Source: Streptosporangium lutulentum
GTDB lineage: Bacteria; Actinomycetota; Actinomycetes; Streptosporangiales; Streptosporangiaceae
Direction: 5' to 3'
NCBI RefSeq assembly: GCF_030811455.1
Contig: NZ_JAUSQU010000001.1
Location: 6,758,001-6,822,000 of the forward strand
Length of the DNA stretch: 64,000 bases
Shown: piece after piece, positions 32,026-45,472 of the stretch
Numbering within the stretch: the stretch's first letter is position 1
How the letters are laid out: each line of letters opens with the position of its first letter
Made by a program: the position numbers and the translations under genes
Notes under the pieces: model-generated
Told to the model about the DNA's origin: nothing
Database searches by the model: none
What the model saw: only the letters and a program-made list of their open reading frames with translations

Positions 32026-32390
32026 GCCCAGAGTCTAAGAGCATCGGAGCACGATCGGGATTACGTCCTCCTGCACCGGAAGACGTGCCTTGGCCGGCGG
32101 GCCCCGGGAGACCTTTCCCACCTGTGAAAACTTGATCACGAATATTCGTTTTTTCCTGACCGAAATCACCGGACCGAAATCGCGTCCGACGCCGGTCCGG
32201 GAGCCCCGCCAGTGGTGACGAGGCCCGCGACCGCCCGCGGGGCGTCCCCCCTCGCCGGACCCGATCCGGGATCCGTTCAGGGCCCTGACCTGGGGCGGGA
32301 CGGAGATCGAGGCCGACCGCGAATATTCATTTGCCCTGGCCCCGCGAATTTCATACGGTACAGACACGCTGAAAGGAGGTGGTCCGAACG
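32026..32390. other. Intergenic region with AT-rich palindromes
   Basis: ACGAATATTCGT (32138-32149) is a 12-base palindrome followed by a T run. CGCGAATATTCAT (32318-32330) and CGCGAATTTCAT (32343-32354) form a direct repeat 25 bases apart, just before the small ORF. The elements look like a promoter/operator region in otherwise GC-rich DNA. No gene was supported. Confidence 0.5.
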
Positions 32391-32432
32391 ATGGTTAGTC
32401 ATAGTTGGGCTAGCGAGGTGGCTGTCCGCTAG
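32391..32432 (+). CDS. 13-residue small ORF with an extended Shine-Dalgarno
   Basis: ATG 32391 to TAG 32432 encodes MVSHSWASEVAVR. GAAAGGAGGTGGTCC (32371-32385) lies 5 bases before it and is complementary, with one G-U-type change, to nearly the whole 3' tail of 16S rRNA. Such a match is rarely accidental and implies heavy translation. Its codons (GTT, AGT, GCT) are unusual for this genome. Two hairpins follow the stop. No same-strand gene starts within 1.2 kb, so it is not an obvious attenuator leader. I do not recognise the peptide. Confidence 0.6.
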   Translation: MVSHSWASEVAVR

Positions 32433-32443
32433 GACGCCGCAGC

Positions 32444-32474
32444 TCCGGACTTCTGTCCGGACGTCTTGCGACGT
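32444..32474 (+). other. Twin hairpins after the small ORF
   Basis: TCCGGAC-TTCT-GTCCGGA (32444-32461) is followed at once by ACGTC-TTGC-GACGT (32461-32474). Both have perfect stems and tetraloops and begin 11 bases after the TAG. They could terminate or stabilise a short RNA. Confidence 0.6.
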
Positions 32475-32559
32475 TCGGCGAATCCATGACAATCACCGGA
32501 ACCCCGGGTTGCCGGAAGGCGGTTCATCCCGTCTTTGGTCCATCCGGCCCTTCTGCCGA

Positions 32560-32758
32560 GCAGGAGGAGCAGGCCCGGGGTTCTTCCTTTTCCCGACTTC
32601 CCGACCGTCTTCACGGTCGTTCCCGGCCGCCTTCACGGTCGCCTCTCGTATCGCCTCTCCGAACCTCTCTCGTGTCGCCTCTCCGAGACGGGCGGTGGCG
32701 AGGTCGCCTCAGTGCTCACCGAGGACGGGAAGCTCAGTGCTCGCCGCGGGCGGGAAGC
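32560..32758. repeat. Degenerate repeats leading into and covering the DUF2470 stop codon
   Basis: Exact 25-base neighbours TCAGTGCTC...GGGAAGC lie at 32709-32733 and 32734-32758 with 3 differences; the second one contains the gene's stop (complement of TCA 32734-32736). Further out, CCGCCTTCACGGTCG-type and TCGCCTCTCCGA-type units repeat from about 32600. Confidence 0.8.
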
Positions 32759-34199: not shown

Positions 34200-34916
34200 T
34201 CAGTGGGGCAGCACCGCGTTCAGCCGCTCCTCGCGAAGCCGCTCGAACCAGGAGTCGTCGATCGGCGGGAGCTGGGCGCCCACCGCCCAGGTGAGCAGCA
34301 GGTCCGCCAGGCCGGGGTTTCGGGCGAGCGCGGGACCGTGCAGGTAGGTGCCGACGATCCTGCCCGTGTAGCAGCCCTCGGTGCCGTCGCCGTTGCCGAC
34401 GCCGACCGTCGTCCGGGCCAGCGGCCGGACGCCGGGGCCCAGCCGGGTGACGCCCATGTGGTTCTCGAAGCCGGTGAGCGTCGGAAGACCGAGCGCCGCG
34501 TCCGTCTCGCCGGCCAGCTCGCCGACGGCGCGGCCCTCGCCGCGGCCACTGGCGATGTCGATCAGTCCGATGCCGTCCACCGGCTGGCCTTCCTCACCGC
34601 CGAACGTGGTGCCCATGATCTGGTACCCCGCGCAGACGGCCAGCAGGGACGCGCCCCGGGCGATGGCCCGATGCAGGCCGCCGTCCCGCCGGAGGCGCTC
34701 GGCGGCGAGGATCTGCGGCCGGTCCTCTCCGCCGCCGATCAGGTAGATGTCACCGCCCTCAGGCACCGGGTCGGCCGAACGCACGTGGACGGTCTCGACC
34801 GGGATTCCGCGACGCCGGGCCCGCTGTTCCAGGATCAGGACGTTGCCCTGGTCTCCGTAGGTGCTCAACAAATCCGGATAAATCCAGACGAGGCGCAGGG
34901 CGCTGTCAGACTGCAC
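34200..34916 (-). CDS. gatD: Lipid II isoglutaminyl synthase, glutaminase subunit GatD
   Basis: The 238-residue class-I-type amidotransferase has the nucleophile Cys in LAVCAGYQIMG (about residue 94) and the catalytic His in GTYLHGP (about 190). GatD makes ammonia from glutamine, which MurT uses to amidate D-Glu of lipid II to D-isoglutamine. It overlaps the murT gene by 11 bases, the usual arrangement of this pair. Confidence 0.93.
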   Translation of the reverse strand: MQSDSALRLVWIYPDLLSTYGDQGNVLILEQRARRRGIPVETVHVRSADPVPEGGDIYLIGGGEDRPQILAAERLRRDGGLHRAIARGASLLAVCAGYQIMGTTFGGEEGQPVDGIGLIDIASGRGEGRAVGELAGETDAALGLPTLTGFENHMGVTRLGPGVRPLARTTVGVGNGDGTEGCYTGRIVGTYLHGPALARNPGLADLLLTWAVGAQLPPIDDSWFERLREERLNAVLPH

Positions 34917-36192
34917 GACCGAACTCCGATCGAATGTTCTGGAAGGCGGTGTAGTTGGCGATCACATCGACCTTGCCCGGCGGCTGCGCGGCGAGCGCCT
35001 GCCCGAAGGATCCGGCCAGCTGGAACGGCACGCCCGCCACGTCGAGCCGGAGCGCGAGGTCCAGCCGCCGTTCCCCGGCCACGAAGACCGGTCTGCCGCG
35101 CAGCACGCGGTAGTCGACGTCCCACAGCCAGGAGGTGTCGCGACCGTCGGGACCCTGGGCGTTCACCGAGAGGATCACCGGCAGCGAGGGGTCGAGCACG
35201 TCGAAGGCCTCCAGCCAGCCGGCCGGGTTCTTGGCCAGCAGCAGGCGGGCGTGCCGGCCGTCGCGCTCCACCGTGGTGTAGCGGCCGGCGACCGAGGTCA
35301 CCTCGCGCAGCCGGGGCAGCGCCCGCTCGACCGGCAGGCCGAACACCTCGGCGGTGGCCAGCGCGATCGCGGCGTTGGCCCGGTTGGCCCGGCCGGGGAG
35401 CCGGAGGTCCAGCACCCAGCGCCGGCCGCGCGGGTCGATCACCGCGTCGTCGTCGAGGACCCAGGCCGGCACGGGCCGCCGGAAGGTGCACTCCCGGCAG
35501 GCCCAGTCGTTCTCCGTCGTGCCGGGTTTCGACCCCGACCCGGCGCTGCCGGGCGGGACGTACTCCATCCCCTTGCGGTCCAGCGGACCACCGCACTGGG
35601 GGCAGCACCAGGAGTCTTCCTTCCACGGCTGCCCGGCCGACACCCAGGTCACCGAGGCGGCCGTGGAGGCGCCCCAGGTCACCAGCGGGTCGTCGGCGTT
35701 GGCGATCACGTGGGTGTTCCTGCCCGCCAGGGCCCGCCGCCACTTCTGGGCCAGCAGCCAGATCTCACCGGCCCGGTCCATCTGGTCGCGGCTGAGGTTC
35801 ATCAGGCAGACGACCCCCGCGTCGGTGGCGTCGATCACCTCGGGCAGGTATTTCTCGTCGACCTCCAGGACTCCGTAGGGGGCGTCCTTGGCCGACGACA
35901 GCGCCGAGACGTGCCCGGCGGGCATGTTGGCGCCGAAGGCGTTGGTGGCGACCTCGCCGAGCTCCTGCAACGCGGAGGTGATCAGCCGGGTCGTGGTGGT
36001 CTTGCCGTTGGTGGCGCTCACCAGCGCCAGTTTGCGGTCATGCGCGAGCTGGCGCAGCAGATCGGGCTCCAGGACCAGGCTGACCCGGCCACCGATCACT
36101 GATCCGTCGCCGCGCCCGGTCGCTCGGGACAGGGTCGCGGCCGTCCGGCCGAGAGCACTTGCGAGCTGCGCCCGCAGCGGAAGCTGGGTCAT
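34906..36192 (-). CDS. murT: Lipid II isoglutaminyl synthase, Mur-ligase-like subunit MurT
   Basis: The 428-residue protein has the Mur ligase ATP motif SATNGKTTTTRL (about 58-69), the catalytic EVDEKYLPEV, NLSRDQMDRAGE, and a Cys4 ribbon (CCPQCGG about 195, CRECTF about 225) in the insert typical of MurT. The DUF1727 C-terminal domain follows. With GatD it amidates the peptidoglycan stem peptide, which is essential in many actinobacteria. Confidence 0.94.
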   Translation of the reverse strand: MTQLPLRAQLASALGRTAATLSRATGRGDGSVIGGRVSLVLEPDLLRQLAHDRKLALVSATNGKTTTTRLITSALQELGEVATNAFGANMPAGHVSALSSAKDAPYGVLEVDEKYLPEVIDATDAGVVCLMNLSRDQMDRAGEIWLLAQKWRRALAGRNTHVIANADDPLVTWGASTAASVTWVSAGQPWKEDSWCCPQCGGPLDRKGMEYVPPGSAGSGSKPGTTENDWACRECTFRRPVPAWVLDDDAVIDPRGRRWVLDLRLPGRANRANAAIALATAEVFGLPVERALPRLREVTSVAGRYTTVERDGRHARLLLAKNPAGWLEAFDVLDPSLPVILSVNAQGPDGRDTSWLWDVDYRVLRGRPVFVAGERRLDLALRLDVAGVPFQLAGSFGQALAAQPPGKVDVIANYTAFQNIRSEFGRAV

Positions 36193-36299: not shown

Positions 36300-39272
36300 T
36301 CACTGCTCGGCGAAGGCGAGCTCCGCGGTCTCCGGCGACCCGGCGTCGAACGGCAGCACGAACCGGTGCGGCCAGGACAGCACGCTCTCCATCCACCCCG
36401 CCCCCATCGTCTGGGCCACGTGCCGGAGCCGCTCGGCCGGATCGATGCCGATCGTGACCGTGAGGATGTCGCGCTGCACGCCCTCGTGCTCGTCGTCGCC
36501 GAGGATCACCCGCCAGGCCAGTGCCCGGTTGCGGTCCACCTCCATGGACAGCGGGTGGTGGCGGAGCGCCTTGGCCCGGTGGCCGAGCAGCTCGGGACCA
36601 CCCGCCGGGCGGTTGAACAGCGCGTAGTCCATGACCGGCGCGGGACTGCGCGGGTTGGGCGCGGGCTGCCCGTAGGGGAAGAGCCGGTCCACCTCGTGCA
36701 GCCACCGGATCTGCGGGATGACCCAGGCGGGACCGGCCCGCTCGCCGGCGTCCCGGTCGGGCCCCAGCAGCCGGGTGGAGATCTTGGCGACCTGCTCGGT
36801 CAGTTTCCCCGGATCGCTGACGGTCCGCAGCGACCACGCCCGGCGGCCCACGCTCCGCTCCACCGCCGTGGCCAGCAGGCATTCGCGCCTGCGCAGCGGG
36901 AGCTCCGCCCACAGATCGGCCAGCGCCCTCGGCACCCCCGGCATCGGCCGGTCGGTGCAGTGCGCCAGCACCACGGTGTCGGTCCAGATCCGCAGCCAGG
37001 CCCACTCGGGCGAGGCGACGAGCAGGTCGGCCTCCCGCAGCTCGACCAGCGTGCACGCCCGTCCGCTCCGGCACTCCTGCCCGCACGCCGCCGAACGGCG
37101 TCCGCAGATCGGCGGCATGTGGCCGGGGATCAGCCGCTCGCGGTCCTCGCCCAGCGGCACCTGGATGCGCAGCGGCCGGTCCATCCCGTCGGCGAAGACC
37201 GCCGCGACACCCGGCGGCAGCGAGACGACCTGCCGGGACTGCTCCTCGTTCAGGTTCATCGCGGCCCCGACCAGCTGGCGGTCGTCCTCCGCCGGAAGCC
37301 GGTGCACGACCTTCAGCGCGGTGTTCTTCACGACGTCGGAGACCAGCTTGGTGGGGATCTGCTCGGCCACCACGATGCCCTCGCCGTACGCGCGGATCTC
37401 CGCCAGCATGCCCGCCAGGAGCTCGACGGCGTGGGTGCTGGCCCGTCCGGCGCCGCGGTCGCGGAGCAGCCGGTGCGCCTCCTCGATCACGATGACGTGC
37501 CGGAGCCCGGTGCTCCGTTCCTTCCTGGCCCGCATCCGCAGGTGCTCCACGATCCGGATGATCAGCGTGCCCATCAGGAACGCCTTGTCCTCGTCGTTGG
37601 CCACGTCCTCGATCGCGAACACCACGTTGCGCTGGAGCAGGTCGCCGATGTCGGCGGGGTGGCCGCCCTCGAAGAACCGGCCCGCGGAGCCGACCCGCAA
37701 CGATCGCAGCCGCAGCGAGATGAAGCCCTCGACGTCGGCCTGGACCTCCCTGCCGTAGCCGATCTCCTTGATCACGTCCATCGCGTGCTGCTGCAACTGC
37801 TCAAGGGTCGGTACGGCGGGCCGCACGGCCGCCCCGGGCGCCGCCCAGCCGGTGACCACGTCCCAGCCGTTGGCCTCGTACACCCGCTGCAGGGCGAGCG
37901 ACATGATCTGCGGGAACGGCTCCTCGGCGTCGAAGGCCGCCATGAACAGCGCCCGGACCATGTCGATGTGGGCCTGGACCGGATAGCCGGGCTCGGGAGC
38001 GAGCGGGTTGACGCTGAACGGCACGCTGTCGGGGGCGGAAGGATTGATCACGGTCACCGGGGCGAGGTGCTCGATCCGGCCGCCCATCGCGGCGTATTCG
38101 GACTTGGCCGGCTCGATGGCGAGCCACGGGATGCCCGCCCCGGTGAGCTGCTCCAGCAGGTGCCTGACGGTCTGGGACTTTCCGGAGCCGGTGGCGCCGG
38201 TGATGAACGCGTGCCGGTTCAGGGTGGCGAGGGGAACCTTGAACGAGCCGACCGCCCTGTCCTGTCCGTCCAGGATCGACCCGAGATCGATGGTCAGCGC
38301 GCCGGGGACGACGTCGGCCTCGCTGGTCACGTCGAAGAAACCCGCCTCCAGCACCCGGACCCCCGGCACCTCCCTGCGGGGCAGCCCGGCGAGCGCGGCG
38401 AGCGCCCCGGCGGTGGCCGCGAACGGGGCCGCGGTGCCGTCCGCCGGATCCTGGAGCGTCGTGGACAGCGCCTCGGCGAAGCCGTACACCGGCCCGGACA
38501 GCGCGCTGCGCAGGCGGTAGGGGTGGTGGCTCATCTCGGCGGAGCCGACCAGCACGGGGGCGATCTGGCGTAACTCCTCGGGACTCGCGGCCCCGGCCAG
38601 CACCCGGACGCTCCAGAGCCCGGCCTCGCGGAAGGCGTCCAGCTCCTGCATGCGCCGCTCGGCCCGCTCGGCGTCGTAGCGCGAGCGCTCGGAGGCGTCG
38701 CCGTACTGCCTGAGCACGTTGAGCTGGGTCCGCAGGTGCGCGACCTCGGCGTCCAGGAGATCGGTCTGCTCGGCCACCACCAGCCAGGCGAACGGCCGGG
38801 ACATGAGCGTGACCAGCGTGGACTCGAAGAGTGTGGGCCGCTTGGTCTCGTCGGCGTCCGGCTCGCGGCGACCGCCGAGCGGCGGGGCCTGACGTCCCGG
38901 GCAGATGGTCCAGGCCAGGTCCGACAGGTCACGGAGCCATTCGTCGCCGATCCGCACGCCTCGGGCGCCGCTGGGGAAGAGCAGCGGCTCGGGACCGATG
39001 GGGGGCGGCTCCGGCTCGTTGGCGGACCGGCGGGGCGGGCGCGGCGGGGTCAGCGGCCCGGCGTTGGTGACGAGCTCCAGCGGCGCGCCGGACCCCCGGG
39101 ATAGCCAGCCGACCACGAAGGGCCGGTTACGCTGTGCCGCGGAGAGCACGGCGGGCAGGACCGTGACGAAGTCCCACTCGGCGGAGGAACTGCGCGAGGG
39201 AGCCGTGATCGCCTGGATTCTGTACCAGGGACCGGTCAGGGCATGGGGCGGACGGGACACGCTTGGCTGCAT
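36300..39272 (-). CDS. HerA/FtsK-superfamily ATPase of the envelope cluster
   Basis: The 990-residue protein starts at ATG 39272, with GGAG 5 bases upstream; ATG 39323 is the longer alternative. The N-terminal 340 residues are unassigned, with a Pro-rich stretch and a helical region near 190-220. The HerA-type ATPase domain has Walker A GATGSGKSQT (about 365), an EEAH Walker B (VIVIEEAHRLL about 600), and the arginine-rich IPTKLVSDVVKNTALKVVHRL that typifies HerA hexamers. A Cys cluster, CGRRSAACGQECRSGRAC (about 715), suggests a zinc site. No NurA nuclease gene is adjacent, so a DNA-repair role is doubtful. It neighbours a membrane-bound pseudo-ATPase on the same strand. Confidence 0.75.
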   Translation of the reverse strand: MQPSVSRPPHALTGPWYRIQAITAPSRSSSAEWDFVTVLPAVLSAAQRNRPFVVGWLSRGSGAPLELVTNAGPLTPPRPPRRSANEPEPPPIGPEPLLFPSGARGVRIGDEWLRDLSDLAWTICPGRQAPPLGGRREPDADETKRPTLFESTLVTLMSRPFAWLVVAEQTDLLDAEVAHLRTQLNVLRQYGDASERSRYDAERAERRMQELDAFREAGLWSVRVLAGAASPEELRQIAPVLVGSAEMSHHPYRLRSALSGPVYGFAEALSTTLQDPADGTAAPFAATAGALAALAGLPRREVPGVRVLEAGFFDVTSEADVVPGALTIDLGSILDGQDRAVGSFKVPLATLNRHAFITGATGSGKSQTVRHLLEQLTGAGIPWLAIEPAKSEYAAMGGRIEHLAPVTVINPSAPDSVPFSVNPLAPEPGYPVQAHIDMVRALFMAAFDAEEPFPQIMSLALQRVYEANGWDVVTGWAAPGAAVRPAVPTLEQLQQHAMDVIKEIGYGREVQADVEGFISLRLRSLRVGSAGRFFEGGHPADIGDLLQRNVVFAIEDVANDEDKAFLMGTLIIRIVEHLRMRARKERSTGLRHVIVIEEAHRLLRDRGAGRASTHAVELLAGMLAEIRAYGEGIVVAEQIPTKLVSDVVKNTALKVVHRLPAEDDRQLVGAAMNLNEEQSRQVVSLPPGVAAVFADGMDRPLRIQVPLGEDRERLIPGHMPPICGRRSAACGQECRSGRACTLVELREADLLVASPEWAWLRIWTDTVVLAHCTDRPMPGVPRALADLWAELPLRRRECLLATAVERSVGRRAWSLRTVSDPGKLTEQVAKISTRLLGPDRDAGERAGPAWVIPQIRWLHEVDRLFPYGQPAPNPRSPAPVMDYALFNRPAGGPELLGHRAKALRHHPLSMEVDRNRALAWRVILGDDEHEGVQRDILTVTIGIDPAERLRHVAQTMGAGWMESVLSWPHRFVLPFDAGSPETAELAFAEQ

Positions 39273-39444
39273 TTGGTCTCCACCCGGGGGACCCGGCTCC
39301 AGGCCGGGGGGTTGACGCTTCACGGATCGCTCCGTCGTACCGGCCGACGGGGAACCGGGGGCGGGTCACCCCCACCACCAAGGTCGAACCTCACTCGGGG
39401 ATCGCACCTCCGCATTGACCATGCCATTACCGCAAACAGACGCT

Positions 39445-41508
39445 TCATTGACGCTTGCGCCAGTCCAGCCGCGCCGGAGGCGGCCCGAGGTTGGGTGGGG
39501 CGTCCTCGAAGGGGTTCGGTTCGCGGGTCTCCGCGGCCGTCTCCTCCTCCGCCCGGTCCAGCACGGCTTCCTTGATCGCGTCGAACTCGCCCAGCGTCGT
39601 CTTGGGGAAGGTCAGTATCGCCGGGTTGGCGTCGGCGAGGCGAACCCGGCGCCCCTGCGCGGTGGCGTCGGTGACGATCACCGAGGTGGTGGGGAGCTGC
39701 TGGAGCTGGTGGGGCTCGACGAGGAACTCCCTGGAGCGGTGCAGGACCCGCTCGGTCTCCCCCATCGCCTTGGTCGCGCGGCGGCCCCACTCGGTGGATT
39801 CGGTGATGTCCTCCTTCAGGTCCTGACGGCTCACGTCGCGCTCGTCCTCGCCCTCCTCGGTCTGGCCCACGGTGGAGACGTAACCGCCGTCCAGCCCGGC
39901 CCCGGCGGCGCTGATCGTCTCGGTGAGCTGGGCGAGCTCCAGCCGGTGCTCGGTGCCGACGTGCTCGCTCGCCACCCGGGCGTCCTCGGCGTTGCCAAGC
40001 CGCATGAACGTCACCGCCGCGTGCCCCCGGCCGAGCCGCTCCCGCACGGTCGGGGTGAGCGACCTGTAGGTCAGCACCAGCCCGGTCCTGGAGGTCTCGC
40101 AGGCGTCCATCAGCCGGTCGAGCACGTCGCCCCGGAGCTTGTCCGCGCCCGCGACGATGATCGTGTGATACCAGGGCCGCTCGGAGGCGGGCGACTGGCG
40201 CAGGATGTGGGTGAGCGCGGTGGTCACGTAGGTGCCGAGGACGCGGTTGCCGAACACCCCGGCCTGCCGGTCCATCGACACGACCCGCAGGCGCGCGGGC
40301 GGCAGCCGTACCGCCTCGGAGCCGAGGGTCTCCAGCTTGCGCAGCTGCGACTCCAGCGCCCACGCCCGCTCGATCACCACGCGGTCGCTGACCCCGCGGC
40401 CGAACAGCGTGCCGATCCGCTCCAGCTGAGTGGCGGTGATCAGGCCGAACCTGAGGTCTTCTCGTGGATCCCCGACCTGGGCCAGGGCTCGCAGGGCGGC
40501 GGTGACCTGATTGATCGTGGCGCTCTCGCCGAGGACCTCCAGGACCCGCTCCAGGATCGCGTTGTCGAACGACAGATCCCTGGTCGTGCGGTGCTCCTCG
40601 CTGACGCTCACGACGTGGGCGAGGACGTCGGCGAACGCCTCGGGGGCCAGCGTGGCCCCCAGGTCGAGCCGGGGAAGGTCCACCGGCAGCACCCAGACCA
40701 GCGGCTCGTCGCCGCCCCTGCGCGCCAGCTCGATCAGGTCCTTGGCGATCGCGCCCTCGGACAGGTCGAGCACGGTCAGGTGGCCGCCGCTGTAGAGGCG
40801 GGTCGCGCCGAGCAGGGTGATCAGCGCCGACCAGCCGGGCAGGGTGCCTCCGGCCACGTCTATCCGGTCGATCTCGTCGGGCACCGCCACGGCGTACCAG
40901 GTCAGCTGACGGTCGTGGCGCTCCTTCTTCTCCGCCCACTCCCGGTATCTGGCGGCGTGCTCCTCCTGGGCGCGGAAGAGCTCCCTGTCGCGTTCCTCCC
41001 GCTGCCGGTCGCCGACCGCCTGGTGCTCCCGGATCCGGTGGCGGACCGCCCTGTCGCCCTGGTGGACCGCGTAGGTGCAGAACGCCGCGATCCCGCCGGT
41101 GGCGATCAGGCCGGCGGCGACGAAGGACCAGCTCAGCATCTGGGTGAGACCGAGCCCGAGGATGAGTGCGGCGAGCGCGAGCATGAACACTCGGACGATC
41201 TTCACCGGCCGGTTCAGCAGGTCTTCGTTGAGCCGCTCCCGGCGCACCCACTCGTTGTCGACGGGGTCGGCGGGGTTCTCGACGGGAGAGGGTCGCTTCG
41301 GAGCCGGACCCGGATCAGGGTGCAACAAGGCATACTGCCAGCCCAGGTAGATCCGGTCCGCCTGGAGCTGCGCATGCTCGGGATGCACGTCCGCCACGGA
41401 ACCTCCGCCATCGGGCTCATCGGAAGCCTCGATGACAGCGTAAGAGTTGGACCTCCTATTCGGGCAGCGTTCCCGCCAATCCGCTCCATATTTCCCCGCA
41501 TTCGCCAT
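39445..41508 (-). CDS. Membrane-anchored coupling-protein-like pseudo-ATPase
   Basis: The 687-residue protein has two adjacent membrane segments (about 108-150), a charged coiled coil (about 155-205), then a RecA/TraD-like domain. The position of the P-loop reads GGTLPGWSALITLLGA and has no GK(S/T), so ATP hydrolysis is unlikely. A later segment, IIVAGADKLRGDVLDRLMDAC plus FMRLGNAEDARVASEHVG (given in parts), resembles the C-terminal lobe of type IV coupling proteins of actinobacteria. The start is uncertain: ATG 41508 lacks a ribosome site, while GTG 41397 has GGAGG 4 bases before it. It probably works with the HerA-type ATPase encoded 172 bases downstream. Confidence 0.6.
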   Translation of the reverse strand: MANAGKYGADWRERCPNRRSNSYAVIEASDEPDGGGSVADVHPEHAQLQADRIYLGWQYALLHPDPGPAPKRPSPVENPADPVDNEWVRRERLNEDLLNRPVKIVRVFMLALAALILGLGLTQMLSWSFVAAGLIATGGIAAFCTYAVHQGDRAVRHRIREHQAVGDRQREERDRELFRAQEEHAARYREWAEKKERHDRQLTWYAVAVPDEIDRIDVAGGTLPGWSALITLLGATRLYSGGHLTVLDLSEGAIAKDLIELARRGGDEPLVWVLPVDLPRLDLGATLAPEAFADVLAHVVSVSEEHRTTRDLSFDNAILERVLEVLGESATINQVTAALRALAQVGDPREDLRFGLITATQLERIGTLFGRGVSDRVVIERAWALESQLRKLETLGSEAVRLPPARLRVVSMDRQAGVFGNRVLGTYVTTALTHILRQSPASERPWYHTIIVAGADKLRGDVLDRLMDACETSRTGLVLTYRSLTPTVRERLGRGHAAVTFMRLGNAEDARVASEHVGTEHRLELAQLTETISAAGAGLDGGYVSTVGQTEEGEDERDVSRQDLKEDITESTEWGRRATKAMGETERVLHRSREFLVEPHQLQQLPTTSVIVTDATAQGRRVRLADANPAILTFPKTTLGEFDAIKEAVLDRAEEETAAETREPNPFEDAPPNLGPPPARLDWRKRQ

Positions 41509-41565
41509 TACTTAGGGGACAAATGAGGCGGAGGGGGCGGACGCCAGCGATTACCATCCTTTGTC

Positions 41566-42231
41566 ATGACGTCTGCCCCCGGTGACGGTCCCAGAGGTAC
41601 CCGGCGACGGCGCGCGGTCGCAGTACCCGTCGCGGCTCTGGTCGTTTTCACCGGTCTGGGCGTCGTCACGGCCTTCGGCGGACTCGGCGACGCCCCGGAC
41701 AGGCCTCCCAAACAGCTCGGTCCGGGTTCGATCCTGGATCAGGAACAGTTTCTCACCACATTCGTGGGGTCGCGCGCTACCGTCGAGCCTGGAACGTTCG
41801 ATGCTCCGGACAAACACGTCGTGGAGATCGAGATGGAGGTCACCAACAAGGGTGACACGACCACTCTCGTGGGGCGGCCCAACGACAAGGGCTACAACAG
41901 CCCGTTCTTCGCCGGATCCCTGCTCAAACTGACCCCCGAGATCAAGATGGAGTACGGCCCGGACGCCTTCGCCTCGGCCGACGGCGTCCAGAGCGGCCAG
42001 CTACAGCCCGGCATGCCGACCAAAGTCGTGATCAAATACGAGCTACCGAACGGGCAACGGGTGCCTGAGCGGGTGAGAATGGACGTCGGCACATTCGAGT
42101 TCTCGGAGGGGATCACCCTGACTCCGGGCTGGCACCTGGTGACGGAGGACGCGGTCGACGAGACCAGGCCCTCCCTCACGGTCGCGGCCCAGGTGACCCT
42201 CCCCGTCCAGTCGGAAGGAGCGTCCGGATGA
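41566..42231 (+). CDS. Single-pass membrane protein with external domain (envelope cluster)
   Basis: The 221-residue protein has a basic start, one membrane segment (about 18-40) and an external domain of about 175 residues with alternating strands (KHVVEIEMEVTNKGDTTTLVG; TPGWHLVTED). I recognise no family; the strand pattern resembles DUF4352-like immunoglobulin folds. It diverges from the pseudo-ATPase gene and overlaps the next gene by ATGA, forming a three-gene operon of similar proteins. Confidence 0.65.
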   Translation: MTSAPGDGPRGTRRRRAVAVPVAALVVFTGLGVVTAFGGLGDAPDRPPKQLGPGSILDQEQFLTTFVGSRATVEPGTFDAPDKHVVEIEMEVTNKGDTTTLVGRPNDKGYNSPFFAGSLLKLTPEIKMEYGPDAFASADGVQSGQLQPGMPTKVVIKYELPNGQRVPERVRMDVGTFEFSEGITLTPGWHLVTEDAVDETRPSLTVAAQVTLPVQSEGASG

Positions 42232-42884
42232 GCGCGGTCACCCGATCCCGGCCCGAGCCGGTCGCCCCTCCGCCTGCTCCGGCGCCGCCCGGCCGGTGGC
42301 GCAGGGCGGGCGCCGTCCTCGTCGGAGTCGCCCTGGCGGCGGCGGCCGTGAGCCTGCAGGCGTTCGGATCCGACGCCGCGGATCACAACTCCCCCCTCAC
42401 CTGGACCGGAGGCGTCGGCGACGAGGTCGTCGCCTCCCGGTTCTCCGCGCGGGTGAAGGCGGTGCAGGCCGCCAAGGCCCTCGAGACGAAGGGCTTCTCG
42501 GACGAGGTGAAGCGGGTGACCACGAAGGGGATCTTCGTCATCGTGCAGGTGGGCGCCATGTCGGCCCGCGAGCCTCTGAAACTGGGGACGCCCGTGCTTC
42601 TGACGGACAGCGGGCACGGCTACGAGGCGACGGACAAGGTGGACGCCTCGCTGACCGTCACCGAGCTCTACATCCAGCCCGGCTGGTGGGGCGAGGGCAT
42701 CACCGTGTTCGAACTCCCCACCGGCGAGCTACCGGGCTCCCGGATCGTGCTCAGTCCCTTGTCCTCGGCCCTCGTCGAACCCAGCGGCCCCGAGATCGAG
42801 ATCGACCTGGGCCTGGACGAGGCGGCCGCGCGGCGCCTCGTCTCCACCGCCAAGGACGTCTACACGGTGGCGGGCAGGACCTGA
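42228..42884 (+). CDS. Single-pass membrane protein with external domain (envelope cluster)
   Basis: The 218-residue protein has a Pro-rich cytoplasmic start, one membrane segment (about 27-46) and a predicted external beta domain (VTTKGIFVIVQVGAMS, then a conserved-looking WWGEGITVFELP). The VQVGA strand and the GxxxT pattern again resemble DUF4352-like domains. It overlaps both neighbours (ATGA, TGATG), so translation is coupled. Function is unknown. Confidence 0.65.
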   Translation: MSAVTRSRPEPVAPPPAPAPPGRWRRAGAVLVGVALAAAAVSLQAFGSDAADHNSPLTWTGGVGDEVVASRFSARVKAVQAAKALETKGFSDEVKRVTTKGIFVIVQVGAMSAREPLKLGTPVLLTDSGHGYEATDKVDASLTVTELYIQPGWWGEGITVFELPTGELPGSRIVLSPLSSALVEPSGPEIEIDLGLDEAAARRLVSTAKDVYTVAGRT

Positions 42885-44110
42885 TGGAAAGCACCCCACC
42901 CACCGGAGCGCCGGAGGACGAGCAGCACCGCGACTGGTTCACCCCGCAGGAGAAGCGGCCTCCCGCGCCCCTGCGTCGTCCGCGAAGGTTCAGGCAGGCC
43001 TCACCCGAGGAGCCCGACGGGCCCTCGTCCCTGTTCCCCCCGCAGGACGACAGGCCTCCGACCATGTTCCCCCCGCCGCCCGCACCGCGCGGCTCGGCCG
43101 CCCCCGGCGCTCCGGGCCCTCAGCGAGCGGCCTCCGGTCCGGCGGGCCCTCCCGGCACGGCTCCGACCGGCAGGCGGTGGGCGCCCCGCCCCCAGCGGGT
43201 GTTCGGCGACGAGCAGGTCTGGCCGCCGCGTCCGCAGCGGCCGGCGGAAGAGGCGGGGATCTCGACCCAGCCGTTCCCCGCCGTCACGGCGACCCCGTTG
43301 CCCAGACGCGCCACCGCCGCTCCCACACCGTCTCCCGCCGCTCCCACACCGTCTCCCGCCGCTCCCACACCGTCTCCCGCCGCTCCCTCGCCGTCTCCCG
43401 TCGTTCCTTCGCCGTCTCCCACCGCTCCCGAGACCCCTCTCGCCGCTCCCGCGCCGGCTTCCGCACCGCCCCTCGCCGCTCCCGAGCCCCCTCCCGTCTC
43501 CCCCACGGAGAAGCTCGCTCCGGCATCCGAGGAGCGGGCCCCGCGCCGGCGGGGCCGTACGGCGCTCAAGGTCGGCGTGACGATCGTGACCGTGGTGCTG
43601 GCGGCGGCGTTCCCCGCCTGGAACAACTACGACGTCTACAAGGCGAGAAACCCCGATGACAGGATCTACACGGTGGCCGCCGGCGGCAGTGCGACGCTGA
43701 TGCAGGTGTCCTGGAAGGCGGCGATCGAGCCGGCGGACGGCACGCCCGGCCTGAACGACGTCCCGGCCGACCGCCAGTGGCTGAAGGTCAGGCTGACCCG
43801 GACCTTCCTGGACGCCGACGGAGCGCTCAGGCGCGGCGCCCCCCAGGTCGAGTTCAGGGACGCCGACGGCCGTAGCTGGCAGACCCAGGTCACCAAGGAC
43901 GACCTTCCGACCGAACCCGGGGAGCAGCGGATCGGCACCGGCTACGACTACGAGGTGGTCGGCCTGGTGCCCAAGGCCCTGGCCTCGAAGGTCGAGGTCT
44001 ACGTCCGTCCCGCCCTGGCCCGCATCATCCCGGACCAGCCCGTCGAAGACCTCTTCAAGCCGTCCGAGGAGGAGGTCCCCGCCGACCAGGTGCTGCGCTT
44101 CAGGCGGTGA
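42884..44110 (+). CDS. Pro-rich single-pass membrane protein (envelope cluster)
   Basis: The 408-residue protein starts at ATG 42884, overlapping the previous stop. Residues 1-215 are Pro/Ala/Ser-rich and disordered, with seven-residue APTPSPA repeats; the membrane segment is at about 230-248 (VGVTIVTVVLAAAFPAW), followed by an external domain of about 155 residues (LMQVSWKAAIEP, LKVRLTRTFLDADG). A long cytoplasmic Pro-rich arm is suited to binding partners such as the ATPases encoded nearby. No family recognised. Confidence 0.65.
   Translation: MESTPPTGAPEDEQHRDWFTPQEKRPPAPLRRPRRFRQASPEEPDGPSSLFPPQDDRPPTMFPPPPAPRGSAAPGAPGPQRAASGPAGPPGTAPTGRRWAPRPQRVFGDEQVWPPRPQRPAEEAGISTQPFPAVTATPLPRRATAAPTPSPAAPTPSPAAPTPSPAAPSPSPVVPSPSPTAPETPLAAPAPASAPPLAAPEPPPVSPTEKLAPASEERAPRRRGRTALKVGVTIVTVVLAAAFPAWNNYDVYKARNPDDRIYTVAAGGSATLMQVSWKAAIEPADGTPGLNDVPADRQWLKVRLTRTFLDADGALRRGAPQVEFRDADGRSWQTQVTKDDLPTEPGEQRIGTGYDYEVVGLVPKALASKVEVYVRPALARIIPDQPVEDLFKPSEEEVPADQVLRFRR
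43319..43423 (+). repeat. In-frame 21-base repeat coding for APTPSPA
   Basis: Three perfect 21-base copies (43319-43381, each starting GCTCCCACACCG) and two degenerate ones (to 43423) encode the Pro-rich arm. Confidence 0.9.
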
Positions 44111-44221
44111 GAGTCTCTCCGGCCGCCCCGGTTACGGGTGGCCGCGATTCGAGAAGGAGGAGGTCCTCGCGCTTCAGGCGGTGAGCGTCTCCCCTGCCAC
44201 GCGACTGCGGGTGGCCGCGAT
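44095..44221. repeat. Duplicated convergent 3' ends of two cluster genes
   Basis: 44095-44148 and 44169-44221 are about 80% identical, both starting GCGCTTCAGGCGGTGA and ending GGGTGGCCGCGAT. The first holds the stop of the plus-strand Pro-rich gene; the second holds the stop of the minus-strand polytopic gene. Confidence 0.85.
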
Positions 44222-45472
44222 GTCGAAGGTGGCCGCCAGCACGGCGACCGTCAGCACCATGATCACCAGATCTCCGACGAACTCCACCGGGCCTCCGATG
44301 ACCACCCAGCCGAACGGCTGCTCGCTGCCGATCAGCATCTGCACGCCCCGGGTGGCGTAGTCGGTCGCCACGCGAATCGCGACGTAGCAGAGGCAGAACA
44401 TGCCGAACAGCGCGGCACCGCCGCGGGTGGTAAGCCGGAAGGCGTTCGCCGGGGGGACCCAGCGCTCCTGGAACCCGCCCGTCGCCTGGGTCACGGTGTT
44501 CCGGGTGAGGGAGTGCGTGCGCTCCATGCGGTCGGCGACGGTGTCCAGCCGGGTGCCGCGGACGACCGCGCGGGTGTCCTCGGCGAACGCGCCGTAGACG
44601 AGCGAGGCGACCGTGAGCCAGACGAGCGGGAGGATCAGCCCGTCCGAGAAGTACGGCCAGACCTCCCCGACGGCCTTCCAGAAGTCCTTCCACCACGGGA
44701 CGGCGTCGCTCACCCGCTCAAGCCAGTCGGCGACCGCCGCCACGGCGACCCGGTGTTCCAGCCAGTCCGCCCGCGCGGTGGTGAAGACGAACAGCGCGTT
44801 GAGGCTGTAGAAGGCGAAAGCCAGCTCGAAGAAGGTGGTGAGCACGCCACTGCCCCTGACCTTGCCGTTCGCGTACCACCAGCCGAACAGCGCCTTGAGG
44901 AGATAGGCCGCCACCGCGACCCCGAGGGAGACCCATGGGTCCAGCCCGACGAGCCCGGTACCGCCTTCCGGCGCGCCCCCGCCGGCGAGGACCGCCGCGT
45001 CCGCGTCGATCTGCCTGTTGAAGTCCAGCGCGATGAACTCCTGGGCGTCCTGGTTGTGGAAGCTCCAGGCGAGGTAGATGGTGGCGAAGACGAGCGTGGC
45101 GCGGTTGAGCGCGCCGAGCATGCTCTCGTCGGCCTCGCCGTCCTCCCGTCTCGCCTGGATCTCCCTGAGCGCGCCGCGCGCCGAGTGCAGCATGCCGACC
45201 ATGACGACGAGTTCGTTCAGCACGATCAGGGTGAAGACGAACATCGTGATGACGAGCCGCACCTGGCGGTGGTCGCCGTGGGAGAGCTCGCTGCCCATCA
45301 ACATCAGAGCCGCGCGGACCGCCCGGCCCGCGGAGAACCAGAGCACCAGCGACAGACCGCAGGAGCCGAGGATCCTGAGCGCGTGCGCCGGAAGCCCGTA
45401 CGCCGAGAGCGCCCGGACAGCGACGGGGGGTGGCGGGGGTGGCGTGACAGTCGTTCCGGACACCCGAGGCAT
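44174..45472 (-). CDS. Polytopic membrane protein of the envelope cluster
   Basis: The 432-residue protein starts at ATG 45472 (MPRVSGTTV), which is preceded by a longer, unlikely frame. A Pro run (positions about 10-15) leads into roughly seven to eight hydrophobic segments (about 35-50, 70-95, 120-140, 180-205, 215-240, 285-310, 355-375, 395-420). Between them is a stretch with GTRLDTVADRMERTH. No family recognised. It converges on the Pro-rich membrane-protein gene and likely forms the membrane platform of the cluster, but this is inferred from position only. Confidence 0.65.
   Translation of the reverse strand: MPRVSGTTVTPPPPPPVAVRALSAYGLPAHALRILGSCGLSLVLWFSAGRAVRAALMLMGSELSHGDHRQVRLVITMFVFTLIVLNELVVMVGMLHSARGALREIQARREDGEADESMLGALNRATLVFATIYLAWSFHNQDAQEFIALDFNRQIDADAAVLAGGGAPEGGTGLVGLDPWVSLGVAVAAYLLKALFGWWYANGKVRGSGVLTTFFELAFAFYSLNALFVFTTARADWLEHRVAVAAVADWLERVSDAVPWWKDFWKAVGEVWPYFSDGLILPLVWLTVASLVYGAFAEDTRAVVRGTRLDTVADRMERTHSLTRNTVTQATGGFQERWVPPANAFRLTTRGGAALFGMFCLCYVAIRVATDYATRGVQMLIGSEQPFGWVVIGGPVEFVGDLVIMVLTVAVLAATFDIAATRSRVAGETLTA

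Follow-up and report, generated by a model that had tools for sequence, protein, structure and literature searches.

What does a block of six adjacent genes in the 10.6 Mb genome of the soil actinomycete Streptosporangium lutulentum encode, and do the six work together? The block lies at positions 36300-45472 of a 64,000-nucleotide stretch of contig NZ_JAUSQU010000001.1 (positions 6,758,001 to 6,822,000; ‘the window’ hereafter), and a first-pass annotation, made from the letters alone, had read it as one envelope machine: a HerA-type ATPase (HerA), an inactive coupling protein-like partner (here psA) and four membrane proteins (M1, M2, M3 and PT). Our answer is that HerA and psA may together make up the central part of a toxin-export machine not yet described, because their relatives in other actinomycetes often adjoin exchangeable toxin and immunity genes. 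To the general reading, in which HerA-psA forms the core of a protein exporter of actinomycetes that has type IV-coupling ancestry and elsewhere usually carries toxins, we would assign a probability of about 0.55. The earlier interpretation is partly supported, and the chief pointer comes from beyond the window, in the polymorphic toxin-like genes found beside HerA elsewhere.

All six open reading frames (ORFs) are indeed open at this place:

36300..39272, minus strand: HerA, a motor ATPase of the HerA/VirB4 superfamily, about 990 amino acids (aa; the ORF reaches 39323)
39445..41397, minus strand: psA, a predicted membrane-anchored pseudo-ATPase of coupling-protein fold, about 650 aa (the ORF reaches 41508)
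41566..42231, plus strand: M1, single-pass with a predicted external domain (DUF4352/DUF5067-like below the Pfam cut-off only, E 0.13-0.14)
42228..42884, plus strand: M2, single-pass with a predicted beta sandwich like those of YxkC, YjhA, YcdA and MPT63 (AlphaFold2 model and fold searches)
42884..44110, plus strand: M3, with a proline-rich N-terminus, one transmembrane (TM) segment near residue 227 and a predicted external domain (hydropathy)
44174..45472, minus strand: PT, polytopic, about five TM segments, of no known family (hydropathy)

The strands are as first described, although the ‘two facing units’ of that description need correction: psA and M1 are divergent, and PT, on the minus strand, faces M3 convergently. 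Start codons were also revised, the lengths of homologues (mostly 985-991 aa for HerA in Streptosporangium, about 650 aa for psA) suggesting an ATG at 39272 for HerA and a GTG at 41397 for psA. A gene caller based on GC content at third codon positions picked five of the six ORFs, M3 being the one missed (its GC by codon position is 0.73/0.63/0.87); gene calls in the relatives come from the same caller, which may miss other genes there as well. That the block exceeds chance is supported by its recurrence in 15 genomes of the window’s family, and by the numbers of scored candidates that proved homologous at E<=1e-3 (1,630 for HerA and 2,074 for psA).

HerA carries the marks of a working motor:

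38175..38198, minus strand: Walker A motif GATGSGKS, residues 376-383 of the 1007-aa ORF
37053..37085, minus strand: cysteine cluster C747/C751/C757, a possible metal site, invariant together with C815 in an 11-row alignment (A1)

Matches above the Pfam cut-offs comprise HerA_C (8.8e-10), DUF87, P-loop_TraG, AAA_22 and TrwB_AAD_bind and, with its RecA-type motor domain and Walker A, the protein belongs to the HerA/FtsK/VirB4 superfamily. G376, G381, K382 and S383 are invariant in A1, and the Walker A motif is kept in 114 of 114 HerA rows; a looser CxxxC...C pattern occurs somewhere in 106 of these, and a cysteine cluster such as C747/C751/C757 with C815 is, to our knowledge, unusual among HerA ATPases. 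Pfam finds one motor region, to be compared with the several FtsK domains of EccC in type VII secretion. The nearest homologue among the matches listed is from Streptosporangium subroseum (96%), and the genome itself holds a single HerA copy at E<=0.001.

The partner, psA, has two adjacent TM segments in a simple hydropathy scan, and a P-loop that has decayed:

40807..40851, minus strand: degenerate P-loop of psA, GGTLPGWSALITLLG (alignment A2)

The P-loop site reads GGTLPGWSALI, and the consensus GxxxxGK[ST] is absent from 98 of 99 psA rows, the sole match (locus L055) sitting in a hydrophobic stretch outside the site; GG[TSAD]xxG[WR] is present in 57 of the 99. Sequence searches gave little: no match in Pfam or PADLOC, one in NCBIfam far under its cut-off, and no convincing match to solved structures, with some relatives labelled EccE in UniRef. 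The structural model was more telling, as the 19 best Foldseek matches are all TrwB chains (top E 5.5e-8), and VIA-align scores VirB4 and DndH-C much as it does TrwB. As modelled, psA is a coupling-protein (VirD4/TrwB) fold with N-terminal TM helices, and it appears from the alignment to have lost the active ATP-binding P-loop expected of type IV coupling proteins. The two ATPase-like genes are therefore much as the first-pass annotation had them, a canonical motor beside a membrane-anchored, coupling protein-like partner with a dead P-loop, and in most loci the two do occur together, as set out below.

Of 80 HerA loci taken from genomes of actinomycetes, 64 have psA within the fetched DNA, at a spacing of <300 bp in 48, <2.5 kb in 15 and farther in one; these distances were measured between stop-bounded segments, such that the true gaps are somewhat larger. 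A sample of 197 genomes (taken as the genome handles up to G196) tells the same story, with psA in 19 of 19 genomes that have HerA at E<=1e-60 versus 9 of 178 others; in one of the 19, G180, the strong psA copy lies on a contig other than HerA’s. These counts should be read with the knowledge that genomes entering them had in part served to build A1 and A2, that several of the A2 rows had been picked up next to HerA, and that near-duplicates occur among the loci (L078 and L144 have identical HerA rows). For the motor alone, a loose tblastn search (E<=1e-3) of a collection with one genome per GTDB species gave 499 candidate relatives, and in a sample across the phylum HerA reached E<=1e-60 in 3 of 198 genomes, two of which were class members already known. 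Plasmids carry the genes as well: 42 of 72,556 records have a HerA match (E<=1e-20) and 19 a psA match (E<=1e-5), counts that include many copies from S. clavuligerus; Nocardia and S. antimycoticus plasmids have psA and HerA followed by other genes. An origin in phages was considered and rejected, as 50,697 records gave two partial matches (38-39% of the query, about 30% identity).

It is the gene that follows HerA in other actinomycetes that points to a function. Where a same-strand gene lies <400 bp after HerA, its product is acidic, disordered, TM-less and often long in 21 of 42 cases, as against 12 of 1032 genes elsewhere in the same 89 loci (Fisher p 2e-24) and 3 of 22 upstream of HerA, the flag having been defined after examples were seen and the loci not being independent. 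From 86 flagged rows we hand-picked 36 candidate effectors, again after seeing examples, and scanned 26 of them against Pfam; nine end in a toxin-type domain above the cut-off, and these fall into four domain classes, namely ADPrib_exo_Tox (L078, 3.5e-28), Zeta_toxin (L055 and L062, 2.8e-18 and 3.2e-15), the deaminase XOO_2897-deam (L076, 4.2e-20) and Peptidase_C2 (L043, L073, L081, L083 and L084). Eight of these nine genes come directly after HerA, that of L055 lying between psA and HerA, and three further candidates fall below threshold (Ribonuclease in L042, Peptidase_C70 in L048 and RelA_SpoT in L125). Candidates in L052, L054, L055, L056, L072 and L089 are on HerA’s other side, two of those in L055 lying past psA.

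Immunity genes accompany some of these effectors. Ten neighbouring proteins were scanned: the deaminase gene of L076 is followed by a member of the SUKH-4 immunity family (7.4e-12), and in L108 an unassigned 499-aa gene, which itself follows HerA, is followed by Imm49 (5e-47); the other eight gave one DUF4253 and seven without a match. In L043 a DUF6406 gene comes after the calpain-like gene. In the annotated record of plasmid pSCL4 of S. clavuligerus, psA is followed in turn by HerA, an ADP-ribosyltransferase gene and a gene for a small protein; each of these last two overlaps the gene that precedes it. Seven candidate effectors from Actinomadura and Actinoallomurus share the leader pattern SRADSRA, which is found in 14 of 1131 proteins. 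Judged by their domains, then, the relatives look like polymorphic toxin systems: the C-terminal toxin domain varies, the N-terminus is of one common kind, and an immunity gene lies adjacent (L108, L076). They are like the known polymorphic toxin systems (WXG/LXG, T6 and others) in these exchangeable C-termini and adjacent immunity genes, and unlike them in that the acidic, disordered N-terminus has no Pfam trafficking domain and in that the linked genes are HerA and psA.

Synthesising these observations, we propose a model in which HerA and psA would form an energised core at the cytoplasmic face and inner membrane. Paired TM helices would anchor psA in the membrane, and we suggest that it acts as a docking ring or adaptor because its ATP-binding loop has been lost, with HerA supplying the power as the ATPase motor. 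The genes adjoining HerA in other lineages would typically encode the cargo, a polymorphic toxin, together with its immunity protein; the long acidic or proline-rich disordered N-terminus is the likely region for recognition and threading, and the C-terminal toxin domain would be exchanged. In Streptosporangium and its near relatives the pair appears to have become fixed on the chromosome as an inherited form, with no adjacent cargo gene, and to have gained M1-M3 and PT, which are probably envelope-side partners. The direct results are the linkages, the predicted folds, the lost P-loop and the toxin and immunity domains; that the proteins form a complex at all, which way and what it transports, what M1-M3 and PT contribute, and that the form in the window exports any protein, we infer. 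A still more specific version, namely that HerA-psA is an undescribed secretion core of filamentous actinomycetes, with two ATPase folds, through which toxins are threaded by way of an acidic disordered leader, and of which the Streptosporangiaceae form is a domesticated envelope machine, cargo-less or separately loaded, we offer tentatively, at clearly less than even odds.

Several observations weigh against the export model, besides the late definition of the effector flag and the non-independence of the loci. We found no channel component common to all loci; half of the genes after HerA (21 of 42) are not flagged, and 14 of the 26 scanned candidates match no Pfam domain. Nor is the pairing strict, as 9 of the 197 genomes have psA without HerA (E<=1e-60) and 16 of the 80 HerA loci are without psA; five of these lie near a contig end, and seven of the remaining 11 belong to a clade of soil metagenome-assembled genomes (MAGs) and Trebonia. 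Finally, none of the 284 genes called in the window and in its 14 six-gene counterparts carries the effector flag, a search confined to these stretches; no toxin gene was seen beside HerA-psA in the window. In L130 a single 184-aa gene lies between HerA and the MurT-like gene described below.

Could the pair instead move DNA, chromosomal or plasmid, across the septum or between hyphae? Motor and adaptor both belong to the FtsK/HerA/VirD4 superfamily, the best NCBIfam match of HerA is the DNA translocase CedD (67 bits, well under the 600-bit cut-off), and a precedent of sorts exists in the Cmd cluster of Streptomyces coelicolor (SCO4126-4131), which the available part of its published description gives as a single operon for one ATPase and five membrane proteins, with chromosome mis-segregation in cmdB and cmdA-F mutants (PMC2782261). 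Like our locus, Cmd is a chromosomally encoded, membrane-bound ATPase of the FtsK/VirB4 kind accompanied by membrane proteins; unlike it, Cmd has, in that part of the account, one ATPase, no toxin link, and its conserved lysine at residue 90 of CmdB, as compared with 382 in HerA, a distinction that draws on the published positions (PMC2782261). It is hard to see what toxin and immunity genes beside HerA would do in DNA transfer, and neither a relaxase nor an integrase occurs among the 25 families listed of the 106 found in 140 neighbour genes. A Cmd-like or conjugation-like role consequently strikes us as unlikely. The same 25 families hold no VirB6 or VirB10, and no set of type IV secretion system (T4SS) channel components was seen. 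Compared with TrwB-TrwK (coupling protein and VirB4), the window’s pair is alike in that the psA model matches both TrwB and VirB4 and in the association of an active VirB4/HerA-type motor with a membrane partner of coupling fold; it differs in the missing P-loop of psA and in M2, whose beta sandwich is of another kind.

HerA ATPases are also components of anti-phage systems, which raises the possibility of an intracellular conflict, akin to abortive infection, in which HerA and psA would retain a toxic effector within the producing cell or set it free there. PADLOC matches the window HerA to mad8 at 2e-18 and lists 14 HerA models, and the fold of psA resembles DndH-C and HerA defence proteins. 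Saying this, the curated anti-phage HerA models of NCBIfam give <=43 bits against a cut-off of 800, on which membership of those families was rejected; psA is predicted to sit in the membrane; the existence of separate immunity genes (Imm49, SUKH-4) is more in keeping with export to neighbours; and five effectors and one psA submitted to PADLOC gave no match at E<=0.01. We regard this explanation as unlikely too, slightly more so than DNA translocation. The likeness to Sir2-HerA, DUF4297-HerA, MADS and the archaeal CedD is that of a HerA-type ATPase, the differences being scores far under the curated NCBIfam cut-offs, the psA partner and the immunity genes. Because HerA scores so far under those cut-offs and psA matches nothing in Pfam or PADLOC, the pair cannot be filed by profile under a known defence system or T4SS; the first-pass annotation had likewise been unable to name a secretion, conjugation or defence set for it, and its suggestion of a DNA- or protein-translocating complex survives, a translocating complex being the best reading.

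Its six-part machine, as a conserved unit, is not supported. Profiles of M1, M2, M3 and PT all match the same 15 of 119 loci, every one in the window’s family, and because of this confinement we rejected a conserved six-gene machine. Of the independent scatter that the first-pass annotation gave as a refutation, half is seen: the HerA-psA pair mostly stays together and persists elsewhere, and the other four genes do not follow it across the wider class. By this distribution, M1-M3 and PT appear to have been added within one lineage. They are present in 15 of 20 HerA-positive genomes of the family; among the five others, G131 cannot be judged because its contig stops within psA, G180 has a divergent HerA, and the remaining three are L135, L141 and L143, described below. 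As to the proteins themselves, neither psA nor any of these four has a match above the Pfam cut-offs. The ‘three coupled single-pass proteins’ of the first-pass annotation are coupled in that their ORFs overlap (4 bases for M1/M2, 1 base for M2/M3), and each has one predicted TM segment by hydropathy; the beta-type external domain it gave to all three holds for M2, whose external domain is the one modelled (AlphaFold2, mean predicted local distance difference test score 77). PT is polytopic, as it had been described. A VirB8-like (NTF2-like) identity for M2 was rejected, as fold searches give other beta sandwiches, and so was an origin of M1-M3 as triplicates, the sole profile similarity being a weak one between M2 and M3 (probability 29); the profile-library scans took M3 as a longer ORF starting at 42296.

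Whether the four belong to the machine is a separate matter. M1-M3 and PT may simply be neighbours with an envelope function of their own, HerA-psA working alone, a view compatible with export by the pair. Their presence in 15 loci, when HerA-psA is widespread, favours it, as do L135, L141 and L143, where HerA-psA lies near a MurT-like gene with different membrane genes; yet in all 15 loci that have them, spread over seven genus codes, M1-M3 and PT adjoin the pair. We see this as a serious, if minority, possibility. In L135 (5878-8062), L143 (6447-8616) and L141 (6431-8293), from g80/g86 relatives, HerA is followed by a 600-aa membrane protein whose C-terminus has a GGSISGSQIAVGG-like motif in L135 and L141 and a similar one in L143; small neighbouring proteins in L135 (118 aa, DUF5955) and L143 (117 aa) contain a stretch like the GGSISGSQIAVGG motif.

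A FastTree phylogeny of the 114 HerA rows places the 19 rows of the window lineage (the 15 six-gene loci plus L129, L135, L141 and L143) in one clade, with support of 100 and a long branch. On the same tree, the toxin-linked label of 34 rows requires 25 changes, where shuffled labels need 29.4 on average, and cargo therefore seems to have been often gained, lost or swapped, with the window lineage as one stable branch; this is a FastTree result only, with long branches, a hand-made toxin label and a root that is not resolved among the groups.

A literature search of partial coverage found no account of a cassette of HerA, coupling protein and toxin. One published locus may nonetheless be a single example of the HerA-psA system: in the part of the report available, a Streptomyces homologue in cluster A of the exported alarmone synthetases lies beside TrwB-, TrwK- and TrwI-like genes, and a T4SS was suggested (PMC12691689). 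The analogy is with L125, where a RelA/SpoT-type effector just under the Pfam cut-off follows HerA, and that part of the report does not describe the pairing, the loss of the P-loop or the series of toxins (PMC12691689). In L152, too, a RelA/SpoT-type effector follows HerA, to judge by the likeness of its end.

If the export model is right, filamentous actinomycetes would possess a toxin-delivery route with a live HerA motor, a dead coupling protein and no recognised channel, and this could account for the exit of toxins that have no known trafficking domain; loss of ATP binding by a coupling protein would then be compatible with transport. The S. clavuligerus plasmid offers a simple genetic handle, because psA, HerA, toxin and putative immunity gene stand in one row.

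Some minor observations remain. Nine loci of the soil-MAG/Trebonia HerA clade (L065, L075, L090, L091, L093, L096, L100, L101 and L124) have partly common neighbours, and psA was not found in the fetched flanks of this clade’s loci, some of which are short. In 16 Streptomyces and Actinomadura loci a membrane protein (cluster 0) lies near psA-HerA, for example at 5894-7531 in L112, with another at 15277-16746 in L144; the L112 and L144 proteins, the two examples scanned, are M48 peptidases, with an N-terminal DUF2510 in L112. HerA is split over two open segments in a Streptomyces locus (L087, 9686-12718).

Next to the machine, and outside it, lies a fixed neighbour:

34200..36192, minus strand: two genes of 428 and 238 aa (translation)

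Judged by their sequence, these are putatively MurT/GatD-like. The MurT-like gene is the next after HerA in the window, and a homologue of its 428-aa product is close to HerA in the six-gene loci. In L033-L036 (G110, G099, G037 and G071; family genus codes g3 and g5) psA occurs without HerA and adjoins a MurT-like gene. Elsewhere in the window, positions 32364-32590 of the plus strand match the actinobacterial small RNA Ms_IGR-5 in Rfam (62.7 bits, cut-off 45).

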